This document shows positions 22-19,124 of a DNA stretch of 25,489 nucleotides, piece after piece. The notes under the pieces were generated by a model that saw nothing but the letters and a program-made list of their open reading frames with translations, searched no databases and was not told where the DNA came from. The DNA is taken from the IMG/VR virus record IMGVR_UViG_3300044974_000288, positions 1 to 25,489 of that record; one strand, given 5' to 3'. A program made the translations under genes and the position numbers. The stretch's first letter is position 1, and each line of letters opens with the position of its first letter. Source of the stretch: a virus.

Positions 22-96
22 GCCTTGTTAACTCAGCGGTAGAGTGTCTCCCTTACAAGGAGAAGGTCGGCAGTTCGATCCTGTCACAAGGTACCA
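22..96 (+). tRNA. tRNA-Val (anticodon TAC)
   Basis: Acceptor GCCTTGT pairs with ACAAGGT (G·U closing pair), discriminator A, encoded CCA. The anticodon stem TCTCC/GGAGA encloses loop CTTACAA, anticodon TAC. The T-loop TTCGATC is canonical. First complete gene of the tRNA array. Confidence 0.95.
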
Positions 97-102
97 AGAT
101 AT

Positions 103-176
103 TCCCGGATAGTTAAATGGTATAACGTTCGCTTGATAAGCGATTATCGAAAGTTCAATTCTTTCTCTGGGAACCA
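103..176 (+). tRNA. tRNA-Ile (anticodon GAT)
   Basis: Acceptor TCCCGGA pairs with TCTGGGA; discriminator A and CCA are encoded. Loop TTGATAA gives anticodon GAT. The anticodon stem TTCGC/GCGAT has a T·T mismatch at its outer pair. D-loop GG and T-loop TTCAATT are present. Confidence 0.94.
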
Positions 177-179
177 AAT

Positions 180-256
180 GCCCTCTTACTCCAATTGGTA
201 GAGAGAGCGGTCTTAGAAGCCGTAAAGTCTCAGTTCGAATCTGAGAGAGGGCACCA
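180..256 (+). tRNA. tRNA-Leu-type (anticodon TAG), short variable loop
   Basis: Acceptor GCCCTCT/AGAGGGC, discriminator A, CCA. Anticodon stem GCGGT/GCCGT holds loop CTTAGAA, so anticodon TAG (reads CTA, Leu). The variable region is only about 5 nt (AAAGT), a class I body, whereas bacterial Leu tRNAs normally have a long class II arm, as the Leu(TAA) gene at 3740 does. Charging identity is therefore uncertain. Confidence 0.85.
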
Positions 257-266
257 AAGTTTTTAT

Positions 267-341
267 GCGCCTTTAGTAAAATGAATATTACACAACGCTA
301 CGAACGTTGAAGTGGGAGTTTGATTCTCTCAGGGCGCACCA
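267..341 (+). tRNA. tRNA-Arg (anticodon ACG), degenerate elbow
   Basis: Acceptor GCGCCTT/AGGGCGC, discriminator A, CCA; anticodon stem CAACG/CGTTG with loop CTACGAA, anticodon ACG. The D-loop (AATGAATA, between GTAA and TTAC) lacks the usual GG, and the T-loop is TTTGATT with T instead of C56, so both D-loop/T-loop tertiary contacts look lost. Stems are intact, so it may still fold. Confidence 0.85.
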
Positions 342-347
342 AGTTAT

Positions 348-437
348 GGAAGTGTGGTCGAGTCTGGTTTATGGCACTAGTCTTGAAAACTAGCGAACAG
401 AAATGTTCCGTGAGTTCGAATCTCACCGCTTCCGCCA
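348..437 (+). tRNA. tRNA-Ser (anticodon TGA)
   Basis: Acceptor GGAAGTG/CGCTTCC, discriminator G, CCA. Loop CTTGAAA gives anticodon TGA. A long class II variable arm (CGAACAGAAATGTTCCG) is present as expected for Ser. Confidence 0.95.
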
Positions 438-444
438 AAATTAT

Positions 445-532
445 AGAGAGTTGGGTGAGTGGTTAAACCAGCAGTTTGCTAAACTGTCATTGCGAAAGCG
501 GTGCATGAGTTCGAATCTCATACTCTCTGCCA
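445..532 (+). tRNA. tRNA-Ser (anticodon GCT)
   Basis: Acceptor AGAGAGT/ACTCTCT, discriminator G, CCA. Loop TTGCTAA gives anticodon GCT; a class II variable arm follows. It is the last tRNA before the internal promoter at 565–593. Confidence 0.94.
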
Positions 533-543
533 GTGATAAAAAA

Positions 544-593
544 CAACAACTACCGAAATAGTTGTTGACAAAAAATGTTTAGAGTGTTATACT
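544..593 (+). promoter_or_regulatory. sigma70-type promoter with CAACA…TAGTTG module (copy 1)
   Basis: TTGACA at 565–570, 17-nt spacer, TATACT at 588–593: a near-consensus sigma70 promoter. Upstream lies CAACA (544–548), GAAA and TAGTTG, the block shared with the promoters at 7987, 8336, 9692 and partly 12290. Here CAACAACTA (544–552) and TAGTTGTTG (559–567) form a perfect 9-bp hairpin overlapping the -35. It would drive the tRNA-Glu-to-Asn part of the array. Confidence 0.88.
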
Positions 594-615
594 CTATTCA
601 TAGATTAAAAAGTAT

Positions 616-690
616 GCACGATTCGTCTATCGGTTAGGACTCAGGGTTTTCATCCCTGCAAGAGGAGTTCGATTCTCCTATCGTGTACCA
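616..690 (+). tRNA. tRNA-Glu (anticodon TTC)
   Basis: Acceptor GCACGAT/ATCGTGT (first pair G·U), discriminator A, CCA. Anticodon stem CAGGG/CCCTG with loop TTTTCAT, anticodon TTC. First tRNA after the promoter at 565–593. Confidence 0.95.
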
Positions 691-691
691 T

Positions 692-776
692 GGAGATGCC
701 GCCGTAATGGTATGGCAGGAGACTGTAAATCTTCCGACTTATGTCACAACAGGTTCGATCCCTGTCATCTCCACCA
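692..776 (+). tRNA. tRNA-Tyr (anticodon GTA)
   Basis: Acceptor GGAGATG/CATCTCC, discriminator A, CCA. Loop CTGTAAA gives anticodon GTA. The long variable arm fits bacterial class II tRNA-Tyr. Confidence 0.95.
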
Positions 777-782
777 AATTTA

Positions 783-857
783 GGTGCGTTCGTATAGAGG
801 TTATTACTGCGGATTGTCTATCCGCTTACGGGAGTTCGATTCTCCCACGCATCGCCA
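783..857 (+). tRNA. tRNA-Asp (anticodon GTC)
   Basis: Acceptor GGTGCGT/ACGCATC, discriminator G (as in Asp), CCA. Anticodon stem GCGGA/TCCGC with loop TTGTCTA, anticodon GTC. Confidence 0.95.
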
Positions 858-882
858 AATTTTATTATACATAATAGTATGT

Positions 883-960
883 CGCACGGTGGCAGAGAGG
901 TCAAATGCAACGGTCTGCAAAACCGTAAAGTCGTGAGTTCAAATCTCACCCGTGCGTCCA
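883..960 (+). tRNA. tRNA-Cys (anticodon GCA)
   Basis: Acceptor CGCACGG/CCGTGCG, discriminator T (a Cys identity element), CCA. Anticodon stem ACGGT/ACCGT with loop CTGCAAA, anticodon GCA. Confidence 0.95.
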
Positions 961-970
961 GTTTTTCAAT

Positions 971-1046
971 AGCGGGTTACGTCAGTGGTCAGACTATTAG
1001 GCTCATAACCTAAAGGACGGAGGTTCGAATCCTTCACCCGCAACCA
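971..1046 (+). tRNA. initiator-type tRNA-fMet (anticodon CAT)
   Basis: Six pairs GCGGGT/ACCCGC are preceded by A1 opposite A72, an unpaired first position as in bacterial initiators (C1·A72). The 3' end CCGCAACCA and the loop context GGCTCATAACC match E. coli tRNA-fMet. The anticodon stem TTAGG/CCTAA keeps two of the three conserved G:C pairs (A:T at 29:41). An elongator Met is the alternative. Confidence 0.88.
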
Positions 1047-1052
1047 TTTTAT

Positions 1053-1128
1053 TCCTCAGTAGCACAGCGGTAGTTGCACTTGACTGTTAATCAAGGTGTC
1101 CGTGGTTCGATCCCACGCTGAGGAGCCA
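1053..1128 (+). tRNA. tRNA-Asn (anticodon GTT)
   Basis: Acceptor TCCTCAG/CTGAGGA, discriminator G, CCA. Anticodon stem CTTGA/TCAAG with loop CTGTTAA, anticodon GTT. Confidence 0.95.
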
Positions 1129-1144
1129 CTCTATAAAGAAGTAT

Positions 1145-1888
1145 ATGAAAAGCATAATTTTGTCTATATTAATGTTTACGTGTTTGAATGTTAGTGCCGT
1201 TACAGTCTACGCATACAATATCACCAAACAGCATCCGATTGTTGATTCTGAAATTGATACGATAAGACCTATAGCAAGTATTACAAAGTTAATGACTGCA
1301 CTAGTATTGGTTGAGAGTGGAGTTCCTTTAGATGAGAAAGTTCCATACAAAGGAATGTTCTATTCACACAAGAAATTCACTAGAGAAGAATTGTTGAATT
1401 TGATGTTAGTCAAAAGTGACAACAGAGCCGCAGAAGCGTTAGCAGAAAGCATGGGCGGTAAACTATGGACAGTTTATCAAATGAACAAACGTGCAATTGC
1501 GCTAGAGATGTACAATACAAAATTTGATGATACATCTGGTCTGAGTGCAAAGAACACCAGCACCGCAAGAGATTTAGTTATCATGTTGACAGATGCATAT
1601 AAGCATGATAAGATACGTGAGATATCAGCATTAAGTAGATATGATTTGAAAGTTGTTGATAAGAAGAATAAAGAGAAACAGATTCCAGTCAATAACACTA
1701 ACGTGAAGTTGATGAACAAATTTGATATCATTGAAGTATCTAAAACTGGCACAACGAATGCGGCTGGTAAGTGTCTTGTTATGTTAGTACATAAGAATGG
1801 TGACCAATACGCAATTGTTATTCTCGGAGGCACCACAAGAGCCGATGTTGATAACTTGGCGAAGAATATAATGGAAAGAATAATTTAA
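1145..1888 (+). CDS. D-alanyl-D-alanine carboxypeptidase/endopeptidase (PBP5/PBP7-like), exported
   Basis: A 247-residue serine peptidase of the DacA/PbpG (peptidase S11) class, which trims or cuts peptidoglycan stem peptides in the periplasm. All three active-site motifs are visible in order: SITK (residues 45–48, nucleophile S45), SDN (91–93) and KTGTT (200–204), with the family block DDTSGLSAKNTST around 128–140. Residues 1–22 look like a signal peptide. The length fits a bare catalytic domain, without the C-terminal anchor of PBP5. It sits between tRNA-Asn and tRNA-Thr, so it was probably inserted into the tRNA array and is cotranscribed with it. The phage may use it to remodel the host wall during infection or to help lysis together with the SleB hydrolase at 22061; that role is inference. 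Confidence 0.88.
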   Translation: MKSIILSILMFTCLNVSAVTVYAYNITKQHPIVDSEIDTIRPIASITKLMTALVLVESGVPLDEKVPYKGMFYSHKKFTREELLNLMLVKSDNRAAEALAESMGGKLWTVYQMNKRAIALEMYNTKFDDTSGLSAKNTSTARDLVIMLTDAYKHDKIREISALSRYDLKVVDKKNKEKQIPVNNTNVKLMNKFDIIEVSKTGTTNAAGKCLVMLVHKNGDQYAIVILGGTTRADVDNLAKNIMERII

Positions 1889-1893
1889 GTTTA

Positions 1894-1968
1894 GCCGGAT
1901 TAGCACAGCGGTAGTGCAATCGCCTTGTAAGCGATAGGTCGTCTGTTCGAACCAGACATCCGGCACCA
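1894..1968 (+). tRNA. tRNA-Thr (anticodon TGT)
   Basis: Acceptor GCCGGAT/ATCCGGC, discriminator A, CCA. Anticodon stem ATCGC/GCGAT with loop CTTGTAA, anticodon TGT. Its CCA end directly abuts the inverted-repeat element at 1969. Confidence 0.95.
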
Positions 1969-2130
1969 TATTTGTTAAGTGTGTGTGAGAAAGTGTTTAG
2001 CCGACAGCCTAACTATCAAGGTGAATAACCATCCTTCTATGCAATCCAATCCGATGGCTACGGGCATACTGCAATAGAATGTGAGAGCCATAACAGGCTC
2101 TTAAACATATGATAGTACACTTAACAAATA
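1969..2130 (+). ncRNA. candidate structured stable RNA closed by a 14-bp stem
   Basis: A 162-nt segment without a credible ORF lies exactly between the CCA of tRNA-Thr and tRNA-Pro. Its ends, TATTTGTTAAGTGT (1969–1982) and ACACTTAACAAATA (2117–2130), are perfect 14-bp complements, extendable by two G·U pairs. Inside are further stems: AGAGCC/GGCTCT (2084–2089/2096–2101, loop ATAACA), TTCTATGC/GCAATAGAA (2035–2042/2071–2079, one bulge) and TAGCC/GGCTA. It would be released by tRNA processing on both sides. Phage T4 has two stable RNAs of unknown function (C and D) in its tRNA cluster, a possible parallel. I do not recognise the family. Confidence 0.55.
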
Positions 2131-2139
2131 TATAAATAT

Positions 2140-2213
2140 CTCGGTATGGTGAAATGGTATCATTCGTGGTTTGGGACCATGAGGCGCAAGTTCGATTCTT
2201 GCTACCGAGACCA
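2140..2213 (+). tRNA. tRNA-Pro (anticodon TGG)
   Basis: Acceptor CTCGGTA/TACCGAG, discriminator A, CCA. Anticodon stem CGTGG/CCATG with loop TTTGGGA, anticodon TGG. Confidence 0.95.
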
Positions 2214-2219
2214 GTTTTT

Positions 2220-2294
2220 GGGGGATTAGTGATAATGGGAGCACATGTGCTTTGCAAGCATGAAGTAAGAGTTCGATTCTCTTATCCTCCACCA
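2220..2294 (+). tRNA. tRNA-Ala (anticodon TGC)
   Basis: Acceptor GGGGGAT/ATCCTCC contains the third-position G·U pair that marks Ala tRNAs; discriminator A, CCA. Loop TTTGCAA gives anticodon TGC. Confidence 0.95.
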
Positions 2295-2333
2295 TTAATG
2301 TAAAGAAGTAATAATAAAAAATGAAAGTATAGA

Positions 2334-2780
2334 ATGTTATATCTAATAAAATCGTTTACTGATAGTGTAATGGGAATGCTGAATGAAGATCCAGTGCGCC
2401 CTCATATTCCACATGTTGACAGAGTTGGTGACAACAAAGACATTTTTGTCTTGCGTGATCCAGATGAACAAGTGAAAGCAATCACATGCGTCAGTTATCA
2501 AACAGAAATTCCAACAAAAGAAACTGAATTGTTTCAAGTTTCAACTGAACCCGTTGTTGCAATCTTTTATACCATCTGGAGTTATGCTCCGGGTGCTGGT
2601 CGTACATTAATTTTTGATGCTGTTAGACACATCAAAGAAAACAAACCAGAAATTCAAAGATATGTTACACTAAGTCCAAGAACTGAAATGGCAAGACGTT
2701 TTCATTTGCGTAATGGTGCAGTTGTTTTTAGAGAGAATGAAGACACAGTTAACTACGAATACCATAGGGTGATTTTATGA
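2334..2780 (+). CDS. GNAT-fold-like protein (putative N-acetyltransferase)
   Basis: A 148-residue soluble protein. The second half has features of the GNAT acetyl-CoA-binding region: a strand, then PGAGRTLIFDAV (a Gly-rich turn followed by a helix), a long helix with KENKPEIQRYVTL, then SPRTEMARRFHLRNGA, which resembles the motif B pattern of a helix followed by F/H..NGA. No substrate can be read from the sequence. The start at 2334 follows GAAAG at a suitable distance. The stop overlaps the next gene by ATGA, so the two are translationally coupled. They sit as an island within the tRNA array. The acetyltransferase call is by pattern only; it could be a degenerate, inactive GNAT. Confidence 0.5.
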   Translation: MLYLIKSFTDSVMGMLNEDPVRPHIPHVDRVGDNKDIFVLRDPDEQVKAITCVSYQTEIPTKETELFQVSTEPVVAIFYTIWSYAPGAGRTLIFDAVRHIKENKPEIQRYVTLSPRTEMARRFHLRNGAVVFRENEDTVNYEYHRVIL

Positions 2781-2974
2781 GTGATGGTGGAAAAGGAAGC
2801 GCACCACGTCCATTTAGCGTGAGTCAGGAAGAATACGCAAATCGATTTGATGCTATCTTCAAAAAGAATATCAAAGCGGCTGAAGAAATTCATTCTGATA
2901 AGGGCTATGAATTAGGCACCAAAGAAGACTATGAAGCATTCAATAAGAAACGCCAAGATGCGTTAAACAAATAA
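2777..2974 (+). CDS. small conserved phage protein of unknown function
   Basis: A 65-residue charged protein beginning MSDGGKGSAPRPF, then FSVSQEEYANRFDAIFKK and a Lys/Glu-rich helical tail. I recall proteins with this MSDGGKGS…RPFSVS start from many unrelated tailed phages, where the function is unknown. The start codon overlaps the stop of the preceding gene (ATGA), and the stop lies two bases before tRNA-Trp, so the packing is extremely tight. No membrane segment or catalytic motif is visible. Confidence 0.75.
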   Translation: MSDGGKGSAPRPFSVSQEEYANRFDAIFKKNIKAAEEIHSDKGYELGTKEDYEAFNKKRQDALNK

Positions 2975-2975
2975 T

Positions 2976-3049
2976 TACTCACTGGTGTAATGGCAGCACC
3001 ACGGTCTCCAAAACCGTTAGTCAAGGTTCGAGTCCTTGGTGGGTAGCCA
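2976..3049 (+). tRNA. tRNA-Trp (anticodon CCA)
   Basis: Acceptor TACTCAC/GTGGGTA, discriminator G (a Trp determinant), CCA. Anticodon stem ACGGT/ACCGT with loop CTCCAAA, anticodon CCA. It begins immediately after the stop codon of the previous gene. Confidence 0.95.
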
Positions 3050-3056
3050 AAAAATT

Positions 3057-3130
3057 GCGGGGTTCGTATAGTGGTAATACCTTAGCCTTCCAAGCTAATG
3101 CTGACAGTTCGATTCTGTTACCCCGCTCCA
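3057..3130 (+). tRNA. tRNA-Gly (anticodon TCC)
   Basis: Acceptor GCGGGGT/ACCCCGC, discriminator T, CCA. Anticodon stem TTAGC/GCTAA with loop CTTCCAA, anticodon TCC. Confidence 0.95.
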
Positions 3131-3131
3131 C

Positions 3132-3160
3132 TTGACAAAAGGCACAATGTAGAATATACT
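3132..3160 (+). promoter_or_regulatory. sigma70-type promoter
   Basis: TTGACA at 3132–3137, a 17-nt spacer, and TATACT at 3155–3160. It lies between tRNA-Gly and tRNA-Arg(TCT) and would drive the last tRNAs and the DUF2452 gene. Unlike the other promoters here it lacks the CAACA…TAGTTG upstream block. Confidence 0.82.
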
Positions 3161-3179
3161 ACATGTATAGAAATTAATC

Positions 3180-3254
3180 CTGGCGTTAGTATAATGGATA
3201 ATACAGTAGCCTTCTAAGCTATCAATAGAGGTTCGATTCCTCTACGCCGGACCA
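3180..3254 (+). tRNA. tRNA-Arg (anticodon TCT)
   Basis: Acceptor CTGGCGT/ACGCCGG (one T·G pair), discriminator A, CCA. Anticodon stem GTAGC/GCTAT with loop CTTCTAA, anticodon TCT, which reads AGA, a common Arg codon in AT-rich phage genes. Confidence 0.94.
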
Positions 3255-3266
3255 TCTAATGTTAGC

Positions 3267-3737
3267 ATGACCAAAAAACCAAATTCTGCAAAAGGTGTAA
3301 ACAGTTACGATTCTACATCGACAGGAACATTGATTCCTTTCTTTAATAGAAATGTATCAGAGTATCCGACAGAAGCTGGTGGCATTAAGTTCGATTTAGT
3401 TCCTGTGACTAAACAAAAAGACTTGATGATAAATCATGCTAGAATGTATGCACAACAAGAGTATGATAGAATCATGCAACTTGTTGAAGTGCTAGATAAA
3501 CAAGCGCAAGAGATTAAACGTAGATTAGAAATAACAGATGCAGTTCATGCCGCAGAATATCAGTTTCAACTTGTCATGGGCAATTGCTACTGGTTAGTTT
3601 GGAATACACGTAAAGAAAAAACTTTGCTAGTGCTTACTAGTCCAACTGGGTGGTCAACGGGTAAACCTATTGACTATGAGTACATAGCGCAAGTGAAATA
3701 CATGGGCGACCATACGTGGATGGAAATTGTAGAATAA
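3267..3737 (+). CDS. DUF2452-like conserved phage protein
   Basis: A 156-residue soluble protein. The core runs from YPTEAGGIKFDLVPV through a long helix with KDLMINHARMYAQQEYDRI and QAQEIKRRLEITDAVHAAEY, to a beta-rich C-terminus with YWLVWN, GWSTG and GDHTWMEIVE. This layout matches the DUF2452 family found in T4-like phages and some bacteria; no molecular function is known. It stands between tRNA-Arg and tRNA-Leu with only a few bases on either side, and its promoter is probably 3132–3160. Confidence 0.72.
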   Translation: MTKKPNSAKGVNSYDSTSTGTLIPFFNRNVSEYPTEAGGIKFDLVPVTKQKDLMINHARMYAQQEYDRIMQLVEVLDKQAQEIKRRLEITDAVHAAEYQFQLVMGNCYWLVWNTRKEKTLLVLTSPTGWSTGKPIDYEYIAQVKYMGDHTWMEIVE

Positions 3738-3739
3738 AT

Positions 3740-3823
3740 GCGAGTATGGTGGAATAGGTAGACACAAGAGACTTAAAATCTCTCGCCTTGTGCGTCCCGG
3801 TTCAAGTCCGGGTACTCGTACCA
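3740..3823 (+). tRNA. tRNA-Leu (anticodon TAA)
   Basis: Acceptor GCGAGTA/TACTCGT, discriminator A, CCA. Anticodon stem AGAGA/TCTCT with loop CTTAAAA, anticodon TAA. It has the normal class II variable arm (CGCCTTGTGCG). Confidence 0.95.
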
Positions 3824-3830
3824 AGTTTTA

Positions 3831-3906
3831 GGGCTGATAGCTTAACGGTTAAAGCAGAGGACTCATAATCCTTTGAGTGTGGGTTCGATTCCCTCTCAGC
3901 CTACCA
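3831..3906 (+). tRNA. tRNA-Ile2 (anticodon CAT, lysidine type) or elongator tRNA-Met
   Basis: Acceptor GGGCTGA/TCAGCCT with a fully paired first position (G·U), discriminator A, CCA. Loop CTCATAA gives anticodon CAT. The context GACTCATAATC…TTG and the D-arm TAGCTTAACGGTTAAAGC resemble E. coli tRNA-Ile2, whose C34 is changed to lysidine. Elongator Met cannot be excluded. Confidence 0.9.
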
Positions 3907-4318: not shown

Positions 4319-5051
4319 TTCTTGCATAGACGTTTATCAATATGGAACAATCGACAGATTGAGTCCAGAAGCCCCAATTCCCGTAATCAAATTAACTAGA
4401 AAAGAAACCAGACTTGGTATGGCACGAAATGTCCATAGCAATCTGTATAAACTCGGCTGTGACACAACGATAATTTCAAATCAAGCGGCAGGTATCAATG
4501 GTGAACCGAGAATCACAAAGACTAGAATCATAGACGAAAAATCTGGATATCAAATTGTTAGAATAGATGATGAGCCAAAGATAGATCCATGGGATGGAAT
4601 TGTAGATACGGAAGGTTATGATGCTGTTGTTGTATCCGATTATAACAAAGGCTTTCTAACTTACGAACATATTCAAAATCTGATTCACGATTTTAATGGA
4701 CCAGTTTTTATCGATACGAAGAAAAGAAACTTAGAAGCATTTAATGGTGCTTACGTTAAGATCAACGAAAAAGAATTTGAAGAAGCCGAGTCTCATGCAT
4801 GGGATATGATTGTGACACTAGGCGCAAAGGGCGCAATGTTAAAAGGCGAACACACAAATACTGTACATGCAACAAAAAAAGTTGATGTGGTTGATGTGTG
4901 TGGCGCAGGCGATACGTTCTTAGCCGCTTTGACTTATCAATATCTTGTGACAAATAGCATTGAAGAAGCAATTAAATTTGCAAATAAAGCATCTTCAATT
5001 ACAGTACAGCATGTGGGAAACTATGCACCAACATTAGAAGAAATTAAATGA
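4260..5051 (+). CDS. HldE-N-like sugar kinase (PfkB/ribokinase family)
   Basis: A 263-residue kinase. IGDSCIDVYQYG (18–29) followed by IDRLSPEAPIPVIK is the signature of the HldE/RfaE kinase domain, which phosphorylates heptose-7-phosphate at C1. GAGDTF (215–220) supplies the catalytic Asp (D218) of the PfkB family. The common GGAAN block reads LGMARN here. The protein is somewhat shorter than a bacterial HldE kinase domain, with compact central loops. I chose the ATG at 4260 because the fold starts right after it; an upstream ATG at 4203 would add 19 residues. Either way it overlaps the nucleotidyltransferase gene in another frame, and it ends in ATGA overlap with 5048. Together the two genes make an activated sugar, likely ADP-heptose. 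Confidence 0.85.
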   Translation: MTDLKNIQQQTKFKILLIGDSCIDVYQYGTIDRLSPEAPIPVIKLTRKETRLGMARNVHSNLYKLGCDTTIISNQAAGINGEPRITKTRIIDEKSGYQIVRIDDEPKIDPWDGIVDTEGYDAVVVSDYNKGFLTYEHIQNLIHDFNGPVFIDTKKRNLEAFNGAYVKINEKEFEEAESHAWDMIVTLGAKGAMLKGEHTNTVHATKKVDVVDVCGAGDTFLAALTYQYLVTNSIEEAIKFANKASSITVQHVGNYAPTLEEIK

Positions 5052-17447: not shown

Positions 17448-18137
17448 GTGAAATTTAAACACATTGGATGCGACATTGACTATGATTTGGAAACCGAAAC
17501 AATAAACGGCAAACGATTCTACAAGACACCAGAGGGATTACTATATCCTTCTGTGACTACTATTACATCCCAACATGGCAAAGATAAAATCCTTGAATGG
17601 AGAAAACGTGTGGGTGAAGAAGAAGCGAATCGTATTTCAACTAAAGCATCCAATCGTGGGACTAAAGTACACAAGATTTGTGAAAACTATTTGAACAATG
17701 AAGAAGATTATGCTCGTACAAATCCAGCGCATATCCACAAGACAATGCCAGATACTATTGCTATGTTCAAATCGTTACAACCTCTATTGGATGAACACGT
17801 AAACAACATTCACGCATTAGAAATTCCTTTGTATTCTCATCATCTAAAAGTTGCTGGTAGAGTTGACTGTATTGCAGAGTATGATGGTAAACTGTCTATC
17901 ATCGATTTTAAAACTTCAGGCAAGTTAAAAGAAGAGAGTTGGATTAAAGGATACTTTATGCAATGTTCTGCTTATGCAGTCATGTATGAAGAACGAACTG
18001 GAATACCAGTATCACAAATTGTAATTATGATTGCCGTTGACTCTGAATACCCACAAGTGTTCATCAAAAAACGCAATGATTACATCAAAGATTTTATATC
18101 TTACCGTGAAGCATATGATGCTGTATTGATTGACTAA
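17448..18137 (+). CDS. PD-(D/E)XK exonuclease
   Basis: A 229-residue nuclease of the RecB/Cas4-like class found in T4-like phages. Motifs in order: YPSVTTITSQHG (33–44), GTKVHKICE (71–79, H75), GRVD (137–140, D140), IIDFKTS (151–157, D153 and K155) and QCSAYA (172–177). These form the PD-(D/E)XK metal site. The GTG start at 17448 follows AGGA. It may take part in recombination or host DNA breakdown. It follows phoH by 30 bases; the tmRNA begins about 12 bases after its stop. Confidence 0.82.
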   Translation: MKFKHIGCDIDYDLETETINGKRFYKTPEGLLYPSVTTITSQHGKDKILEWRKRVGEEEANRISTKASNRGTKVHKICENYLNNEEDYARTNPAHIHKTMPDTIAMFKSLQPLLDEHVNNIHALEIPLYSHHLKVAGRVDCIAEYDGKLSIIDFKTSGKLKEESWIKGYFMQCSAYAVMYEERTGIPVSQIVIMIAVDSEYPQVFIKKRNDYIKDFISYREAYDAVLID

Positions 18138-18140
18138 ATA
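18134..18140 (+). promoter_or_regulatory. candidate late promoter, CTAAATA
   Basis: CTAAATA spans the exonuclease stop just upstream of the tmRNA acceptor piece, and it runs into a 12-nt palindrome AATAATATTATT (18137–18148). Confidence 0.42.
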
Positions 18141-18148
18141 ATATTATT

Positions 18149-18209
18149 GCTGTATGAAGCAAAGAGAAACAGGTTTTGGACGGGGGTGCGAATCCCCCCA
18201 CCTCCACCA
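18149..18209 (+). ncRNA. ssrA: permuted tmRNA, acceptor piece (ssrA 3' half)
   Basis: The 3' half of a two-piece tmRNA lies upstream of the 5' half. T-arm GGGGG/CCCCC (18182–18186/18194–18198) with loop TGCGAAT, then acceptor strand CACCTCC (18199–18205), discriminator A and encoded CCA (207–209). The strand pairs fully with GGGGGTG at 18385–18391. The third pair is G·U, the alanine identity element of tmRNA. The left end is approximate. T-loop position 55 is G rather than T, an oddity. Permuted tmRNAs are known in alphaproteobacteria, some cyanobacteria and some betaproteobacteria. Confidence 0.92.
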
Positions 18210-18219
18210 AAAGTAAATT

Positions 18220-18372
18220 ATGAAATATAAAATTGTAGTAAAAACTGGCGACAAAACTTTCGTAAAAGATGTAAGTAAGAGTAAAGAACATTTGCTTGTT
18301 AAAGCAGAAAGTCTTTCTAAAAAACATCCGAAATGGAAAGTATATGTTGTTGCAGAAAATACAATTATATAA
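18220..18372 (+). CDS. 50-codon ORF inside the tmRNA intervening segment
   Basis: MKYKIVVKTGDKTFVKDVSK… ends …KWKVYVVAENTII: a basic, beta-alpha-beta-like 50-residue protein. It lies wholly between the CCA of the acceptor piece (18209) and the first base of the coding piece (18385). Charged/hydrophobic alternation (KYKIVVKTG, KVYVVAE) and lack of rare residues make it look like a real small protein. No strong ribosome-binding site precedes the ATG (only AAAGTAA). No family recognised. It would be translated, if at all, from the precursor before processing removes the segment. Confidence 0.55.
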   Translation: MKYKIVVKTGDKTFVKDVSKSKEHLLVKAESLSKKHPKWKVYVVAENTII

Positions 18373-18384
18373 TTTATTTTTGAT

Positions 18385-18550
18385 GGGGGTGCATAGTTTC
18401 GACAGGGCAAAGAGTAACAGAGTGGACAGCACATCAGCAACGATGTAAAAAGAAGAAAACAAAGTAAACGCAAACGACTCACGTTTCGCATTGGCAGCCT
18501 AAACGCTGACTAGGGTTTCGACAGGTTTCCTCGTAACAGAATAACCTGTC
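18385..18550 (+). ncRNA. ssrA: permuted tmRNA, coding piece (ssrA 5' half)
   Basis: GGGGGTG (18385–18391) starts the tRNA-like domain, followed by the conserved AGTTTCGACAGGG. A pseudoknot-like element ACATC/GATGT (18431–18435/18442–18446) and an A-rich run precede the resume codon at 18470. The tag is GCA AAC GAC TCA CGT TTC GCA TTG GCA GCC TAA, that is ANDSRFALAA. A CAGC/GCTG hairpin brackets the stop codon as in E. coli. A terminal 8-bp hairpin GACAGGTT/AACCTGTC (18520–18527/18543–18550) follows. The product frees stalled ribosomes with host SmpB and tags proteins for ClpXP. The 3' end is approximate. Confidence 0.93.
18470..18502 (+). other. tmRNA proteolysis-tag reading frame, ANDSRFALAA
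   Basis: Ten sense codons from the resume GCA to TAA. The AND start and ALAA end match the E. coli tag ANDENYALAA; the inner RFALAA matches betaproteobacterial tags (ANDERFALAA type), which supports a host of that class. The LAA end is the ClpX recognition signal. Confidence 0.93.
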
Positions 18551-18569
18551 ACTTACTTATGGAGAAATA

Positions 18570-19124
18570 ATGAAAATAACTGATTCGAAAATAATCCCTG
18601 ATGTTAAAATCATCAACCTTCCTGTCTATAGAGACAATCGTGGTTTCTTTACTGAAACATTTAGACCCGAAGTTGAAGAAGCCCTTGGCGTAAAATTTCT
18701 TCAAGACAATCAATCTGTATCACTCAGGTATGTTCTAAGAGGCATCCATTTTCAATGGGATCAACCAATGGGTAAATTGGTTCGTGTTACTCATGGATAT
18801 GGAATTGATGTTGCTGTTGATTTGCGAAAAGACTCTTCAACATATGGGCAGTATCATGCTGAGTTGTTAGGACCAGAATCAAACAATCAGTTATGGGTGC
18901 CAGCAGGCTTTGGTCATGCGTTTCTTTCATTAGGAGAATATACGCATCTAATGTACAAATGCACCGCAGTACACAACCCTAAAGCAGAAGCCGCAATTAA
19001 TCCATTTGATAAAGATTTGAATATCGATTGGCAAACAATTGATGAAATCAAAGACTTTATTCTATCAGACAAAGACAGAGCCGCAGGTTCTTTCGCAGAT
19101 TATAAACTAAATCCAAAATTCTAA
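18570..19124 (+). CDS. RmlC-like dTDP-sugar 3,5-epimerase
   Basis: A 184-residue cupin of the RmlC family. YRDNRGFFTETFRPEV, LRGIHFQWDQPMGKLVRVTHG, VDLRKDSSTYGQY, NQLWVPAGFGHAFLSLG and YKCTAVHNPKAE follow the family order, with the catalytic His of RGIH and the Asp of VDLRKDS in place. The usual target is dTDP-4-keto-6-deoxyglucose, but RmlC-like enzymes also act on GDP-heptoses. GGAG precedes the ATG. First gene of a four-gene sugar/glycosyl cluster; the HldE-like genes at 3920–5051 could supply its substrate. Confidence 0.85.
   Translation: MKITDSKIIPDVKIINLPVYRDNRGFFTETFRPEVEEALGVKFLQDNQSVSLRYVLRGIHFQWDQPMGKLVRVTHGYGIDVAVDLRKDSSTYGQYHAELLGPESNNQLWVPAGFGHAFLSLGEYTHLMYKCTAVHNPKAEAAINPFDKDLNIDWQTIDEIKDFILSDKDRAAGSFADYKLNPKF

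Follow-up and report, generated by a model that had tools for sequence, protein, structure and literature searches.

Initiator tRNAs encoded by phages are already known. That of T5 is on record through the title of a 1975 paper (in the reference list of PMC4810235), and cyanophages have been described whose tRNAs serve all 20 amino acids and include an initiator (PMC4810235). Two-piece tmRNA, too, has already been reported in marine phages (PMC9004378), and peptide deformylase is described as core in pelagimyophages (PMC9004378, PMC7029224).

The structural basis of initiator function has been described for bacteria. Formylation is linked to a mismatch at 1·72 together with G2:C71 and C3:G70, access to the P site to the pairs G29-31:C39-41; A1339 and G1338 of the 16S rRNA dock on pairs 30:40 and 29:41 (PMC7949028, PMC11497404). 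A survey of 9,917 bacterial CAU tRNAs (4,438 initiators, 2,762 elongator Met and 2,717 kIle) gives frequencies for the pertinent positions (PMC5143459). There, A·A at 1:72 is counted in 39 of the initiators, in none of the elongators and in two of the kIle species; U:A is the sole Watson-Crick pair shown at this position in initiators. At 11:24, as many as 4,430 initiators have A:U and three have G:C, a pair counted in 0/2,762 Met and 0/2,717 kIle. The combination AGG,CCU at 29-31,39-41 is the second commonest form among cellular initiators (522/4,438); Met and kIle contribute one case each (PMC5143459).

We here describe a CAU tRNA gene in a virus record of IMG/VR (25,489 bases), the whole of which is called the window. 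It is very probably a phage-borne initiator tRNA (tRNA-fMet) that adds to the host initiator, or takes its place, in the infected cell.

The tRNA and its surroundings

Table 1. Features of the window and their positions
Feature	Position	Strand	Remarks
Initiator-type tRNA(CAU)	971..1046	+	A1·A72, G2:C71, C3:G70, G11:C24, A29:U41/G30:C40/G31:C39, encoded CCA
Cluster of 20 tRNA genes	22..3906	+	ARAGORN, confirmed by Rfam; cut by left contig end
Second CAU tRNA, elongator type	3831..3906	+	G1:U72, C11:G24, GGA/UCC stem
Predicted sigma70-like promoter	565..593	+	TTGACA-17-TATACT, TG before -10; consensus match only
Circularly permuted (two-piece type) tmRNA gene	18148..18502	+	Rfam 102.6 bits, cut-off 47

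ARAGORN predicts a tRNA-Met(cat) with exactly the borders and strand given in Table 1; against Rfam RF00005 this tRNA(CAU) is intact and scores 59.9 bits (E 7.4e-11). In its acceptor stem (AGCGGGU/ACCCGCA) every pair from 2:71 to 7:66 forms, and the 3' end reads CCCGCAACCA, with A73 preceding the CCA. The D-stem starts with a C10·U25 mismatch, which is followed by G11:C24, U12:A23 and C13:G22. The anticodon arm is UUAGG-CUCAUAA-CCUAA and thus has two of the three G:C pairs. A sequence-only reading of the window had noted the unpaired A1 opposite A72, which can be read directly from the sequence, the two remaining G:C pairs, and the likeness of the loop context (CUCAUAA) and the 3' end to tRNA-fMet; all of this is correct. 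It had overlooked a further initiator trait, the purine11:pyrimidine24 orientation, and also the mismatch at 10:25. When folded as a lone strand, the tRNA keeps its acceptor, anticodon and T arms in the minimum-free-energy structure and loses the D-arm; the z of -1.6 is weak evidence either way.

The carrier is a T4-like virus of bacteria. Ten proteins of the window were tested against Pfam, which revealed T4-type gp32 and gp59 genes and a PhoH gene, and in a virus record these justify the words "in a phage" of the sequence-only reading. The gp32 is closest, at about 56%, to those of cyanomyoviruses among the matches listed.

The tRNA gene has tRNA-Cys and tRNA-Asn as neighbours, one on each side. 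The promoter match of Table 1 lies ahead of a Glu-Tyr-Asp-Cys-fMet-Asn run of tRNAs, and a second TTGACA-17-TATACT is found at 3132-3160. Both matches in the cluster have 11 of 12 consensus bases; promoter-like sites number 22 against 13.4 expected. A perfect hairpin, CAACAACTA...TAGTTGTTG, occupies positions 544-567 inside the tRNA cluster, directly before the first promoter match. Between tRNA-Asn and tRNA-Thr (1145-1888) there is a gene for a Peptidase S11 (D-Ala-D-Ala carboxypeptidase), by eye with a possible signal peptide; it adjoins tRNA genes also in the relatives found through it.

Thirteen relative loci were collected, eleven via this neighbouring carboxypeptidase gene and two via a tRNA pattern. 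In intact clusters Gln, elongator Met, Lys and His follow further to the left, and one locus (L010) has 25 tRNAs that cover all 20 amino acids. Six of the 13 (L010, L011, L014, L015, L020, L021) contain three CAU tRNAs, an elongator with G1:C72, the initiator type and an Ile2-like one. The window is devoid of an elongator Met because the contig starts inside the cluster. Its second CAU tRNA could, by sequence, be a tRNA-Ile2 (lysidine type) or an elongator Met; it is probably Ile2, since the relatives have a separate elongator Met. L016 and L017 carry a C1·A72 version of the initiator-type tRNA, with U31·G39. In L012 and L013, which are identical loci, the slot (4827-4900 in each) is taken by an odd CAU tRNA that has A1:U72 and U73, its D-arm being shortened; it is not initiator-like and, according to ARAGORN, has neither tRNA-Cys nor tRNA-Asn beside it. 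This tRNA in the same slot speaks against the initiator reading, in that it argues against a fixed role of the slot in every relative. Truncation precedes the slot in L009 and L019 and follows it in L018.

Features that separate the classes

An initiator should lack a Watson-Crick pair at 1·72, and the window tRNA has A·A there; G2:C71 and C3:G70 are both present. Instead of A11:U24 we find G11:C24, which keeps the purine-pyrimidine orientation but not the exact pair, and instead of three G:C pairs at 29-31:39-41 there are two, in the AGG/CCU form. An elongator tRNA-Met should have G:C or G·U at 1:72 and C11:G24, where the window tRNA has A·A and G:C. Nor does the latter show the combination typical of tRNA-Ile2, i.e., a paired 1:72, C11:G24 and a CGG/CCG, CGA/UCG or GGA/UCC stem. 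Judged by the published frequencies, all three class-defining features (1:72, 11:24 and 29-31:39-41) are of a form found almost only in initiators, and each points to an initiator. What counts against this reading is that G11:C24 is rare also in cellular initiators, at 3/4,438 in the survey (PMC5143459), and that 10:25 is a C·U mismatch.

The sequence-only reading had proposed an alignment with fMet, and the outcome agrees with its view: the global alignment scores are 35 and 31 with alphaproteobacterial initiators and 27 with E. coli metY, as against 18 with ileX and 12 with metT/metU.

A viral lineage that keeps the mismatch

The strongest evidence for the presumed initiator identity comes from a lineage comparison. 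IMG/VR was searched with a pattern made of the D-arm and the variable region, position 1 and the 3' acceptor strand being left free. The search yielded 58 viral stretches with the same D-arm. Together with the window they represent 32 unique sequences, 29 of them with a well-formed acceptor stem; three loci (L478, L506, L509) were left out of the 29, their 3' acceptor strands being shifted or degenerate.

Of these 29 sequences, 28 have a mismatch at 1·72, which is C·A (19), A·A (7), C·U (1) or U·U (1), and the remaining one has U:A. Every one of the 29 forms the pairs 2:71 to 6:67. G2:C71 and C3:G70 are seen in 29/32, the exceptions being the three with shifted or degenerate 3' ends. Compensatory two-sided changes are found at 7:66, 28:42, 29:41 and 31:39, with a single unpaired 7:66 among the 32; 29:41 is A:U in 26/32 and G:C in 6/32. 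A sibling sequence, present in five loci, equals the window tRNA except for C1 in place of A1. The search pattern fixed positions 8-15, 18-19, 22-25, 30, 32-38, 40 and 46-48, so the constancy of 11:24 and 30:40 in the lineage is not evidence.

Base 1 varies, yet its pairing is avoided, which fits initiator function and not the decay of an elongator. This phage lineage thus appears to keep its initiator identity under selection: the base in the mismatch changes, the mismatch stays. A chance origin of the window tRNA is excluded, since it belongs to a family conserved in other contigs. Recent capture from a host is not supported: a pattern search of the phylum Pseudomonadota gave 0 matches to the D-arm lineage in 398 genomes. 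The lineage also supplies natural variants (A·A, C·U and U·U at 1·72; A:U versus G:C at 29:41) that are useful for dissecting initiator features.

The third G:C pair and the host

The missing third G:C pair could easily be misread as a phage innovation. It is not. One locus (L082) lies in the genome of Euryhalocaulis (G014), an alphaproteobacterium, and 58 genomes were drawn evenly from its class. The general initiator pattern is matched in 28 of them, and A29:U41 is seen in 40 of the 41 listed rows; the 30 genomes without a match are to be read with the fact that this pattern misses other acceptors or a non-encoded CCA. Among the initiators from the fetched loci of the phylum at large, 11 of 18 unique sequences have A29:U41. 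A29:U41 is the usual alphaproteobacterial form and not a phage change. A phage-specific loss of the pair is rejected also by the phage lineage itself, in which both A:U and G:C occur.

The permuted tmRNA and A29:U41 together hint at an alphaproteobacterial host. They do not fix it, because the lineage has G29:C41 members and both traits occur in other groups: permuted tmRNA is reported in most Alphaproteobacteria, in Cyanobacteria and in some Gammaproteobacteria (PMC9004378), and A29:U41 is found elsewhere, e.g., in Omnitrophota and Clostridia contigs.

Initiator-like acceptors across viruses

A general pattern for the acceptor (GCGGG/CCCGCAACCA) matches at least 120 viral stretches, and 80 listed loci gave 72 unique CAU tRNAs. 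Among these listed matches, 1·72 is C·A in 43, U:A in 14, A·A in 11 and G·A in 4, and 11:24 is R11:Y24 in 40, Y11:R24 in 29 and otherwise in 3. Sixteen of the 72 combine an initiator-like acceptor (mostly C1·A72) with Y11:R24 and a GGA/UCC stem; judging by their sequences, they are possible hybrid initiators. Loci with such combinations are L260, L261, L270, L274, L276, L287 and others.

An initiator-like acceptor end alone, therefore, does not identify an initiator in viral contigs. The sequence-only reading had relied on the 1·72 mismatch and the CCGCAACCA end; both are present in the window tRNA but are insufficient alone, as most of the 16 elongator-bodied viral tRNAs would pass. The window tRNA passes as an initiator because the 11:24 and 29-31:39-41 pairs also fit. 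Still, initiator-like acceptors on elongator-like bodies imply that sequence features in phages may not map to function as they do in cells, which weighs against the initiator reading.

G31:C39 is kept in 29/72 unique viral tRNAs and in 52/52 unique cellular ones (Fisher p 3e-14), and within the R11:Y24 viral subset in 24/40 (p 2e-7), again among the matches listed. The cellular 52 are the unique sequences from the fetched loci, which were collected with the general initiator pattern and hence encode CCA and have the acceptor that it asks for; outside these, one cellular genome (G224, two rows) has G31·U39. The A1·A72 mismatch cannot be called unique: an A1 pattern occurs in at least 118 cellular and at least 120 viral stretches, and the survey counts A·A in 39/4,438 cellular initiators (PMC5143459).

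Alternative explanations

An elongator tRNA-Met that has lost its first acceptor pair through decay to A·A, and which reads AUG inside phage genes, would agree with the ARAGORN label, which is just tRNA-Met, and with the 16/72 unique viral CAU tRNAs (among the matches listed) in which an initiator-like acceptor sits on a body of the elongator kind. It is very unlikely nevertheless. The survey has G:C at 11:24 in 0/2,762 and AGG/CCU in 1/2,762 elongator Met tRNAs (PMC5143459); 28 of the 29 siblings are mismatched at 1·72, in four types of mismatch, with the rest of the acceptor stem paired; and six relatives have a separate tRNA-Met of the elongator type.

The tRNA might also be a decoy, an initiator look-alike that absorbs host nucleases of the VapC type without starting translation. 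Host anticodon nucleases are reported to cut tRNA-fMet, and evasion of such enzymes has been proposed as a role of phage tRNAs, although the same source states that phages as a rule avoid carrying a gene for the tRNA-fMet that is cleaved (PMC10264068). The anticodon loop of the window tRNA is identical to that of cellular initiators. The D-arm lineage has retained G2:C71, C3:G70 and the mismatch, as is expected of a working and not merely binding tRNA. We regard a decoy as extremely improbable.

That the tRNA is a tRNA-Ile2, its CAU turned into k2C-AU by lysidine synthetase for the reading of AUA, has a negligible probability: the loop CUCAUAA is common to ileX and Ile2-like CAU tRNAs do occur in phages, but the second CAU tRNA of the window (GGA/UCC, C11:G24) is the better fit, and the survey has G:C at 11:24 in 0/2,717 and AGG,CCU in 1/2,717 kIle (PMC5143459).

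The proposed work of a probable phage initiator tRNA

The call of the sequence-only reading, an initiator tRNA, thus stands on the testable sequence features and on the comparison with relatives. The basis of our interpretation is sequence features, comparative constraint and genomic company, from which we infer expression, charging, formylation, use in the P site and a benefit to the phage. The initiator tRNA would be transcribed together with the neighbouring phage tRNAs and charged by the host methionyl-tRNA synthetase. Formylation by the host formyltransferase would be enabled by the unpaired 1·72 and the presence of G2:C71 and C3:G70, and the same mismatch would exclude the tRNA from elongation. 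Its placement in the ribosomal P site may be mediated by G30:C40, the docking pair that is kept in the window tRNA, and by neighbouring pairs. Its job would be to keep initiation supplied when host tRNAs run short or are attacked.

It had also been suggested that such a tRNA might favour the GTG and TTG starts of the phage. This idea finds no support and was rejected. The anticodon is the usual CAU and the pair G30:C40 remains; among the 29 plus-strand ORFs of 100 aa or more, the outermost start is already ATG in 22 (starts being picked mechanically). An altered choice of start codons has no supporting feature.

The initiator tRNA may be part of a near-complete phage set, with relatives that have tRNAs for 20 amino acids, tmRNA and, in one case, peptide deformylase. 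ARAGORN places the tmRNA of the window at 18117-18593 and reads its tag as ANDSRFALAA. A permuted tmRNA above the Rfam cut-off is found in 7 of 14 related records, window included. Peptide deformylase is present in one of the 14, a 150-kb relative (G007, with locus L015; C1:104520-104957, E 4e-38). It was not found in the window or the 12 other records, all short contigs, a point against the initiator reading. Related records with tmRNA and deformylase support the idea of a translation kit. One may go further and imagine a long-lived, phage-only initiator lineage, marked by G11:C24 and C10·U25, which drifted from the cellular ones, retained the mismatch along with the core pairs for the P site, and constitutes with tmRNA and peptide deformylase a host-independent kit for initiation and rescue; nucleases directed at the host initiator may have shaped it. 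We consider this a speculation and rather unlikely.

Comparison with known systems

With bacterial tRNA-fMet (metY and the alphaproteobacterial form) the window tRNA shares the 1·72 mismatch, G2:C71, C3:G70, purine11:pyrimidine24, G30:C40, G31:C39, the CUCAUAA loop, A73 and the encoded CCA. With the initiators of the alphaproteobacterial sample it has A29:U41 in common. It differs in having A1 for C1, G11:C24 for A11:U24 and the C10·U25 mismatch. Its D-arm is unlike those of the cellular initiators seen, and 59 of 79 aligned columns are identical to the best initiator compared.

In the collection of named phages, 133 records matched, and identity to the window tRNA is 73-75% in the best full-length matches. 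In seven named phage tRNAs examined out of these 133 records, A·A at 1·72 was not seen; they have other combinations at 1·72 and 11:24 than the window, and one of the seven, L511, which is without the CUCAUAA loop, was unparsed. The tRNA-Met of a T5-like Salmonella phage (UTK0009), for instance, has U1, A11:U24 and AGU/GCU, unlike the window.

The OM43 phage Melnitz and the pelagimyophages are described as T4-like with a permuted tmRNA, like the window phage (PMC9004378, PMC7029224). Melnitz is reported to have four tRNAs (PMC9004378, PMC7029224), whereas the window has 20, and in its relatives sets of up to 25 serve 20 amino acids and include the initiator. In T5 and the cyanophages, likened here by their description, the initiator lies within a large phage tRNA set, as it does in the window (PMC4810235). 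A phage-borne initiator tRNA is thus of a kind already known, and the conclusion that the window provides an ordinary further example is well supported.
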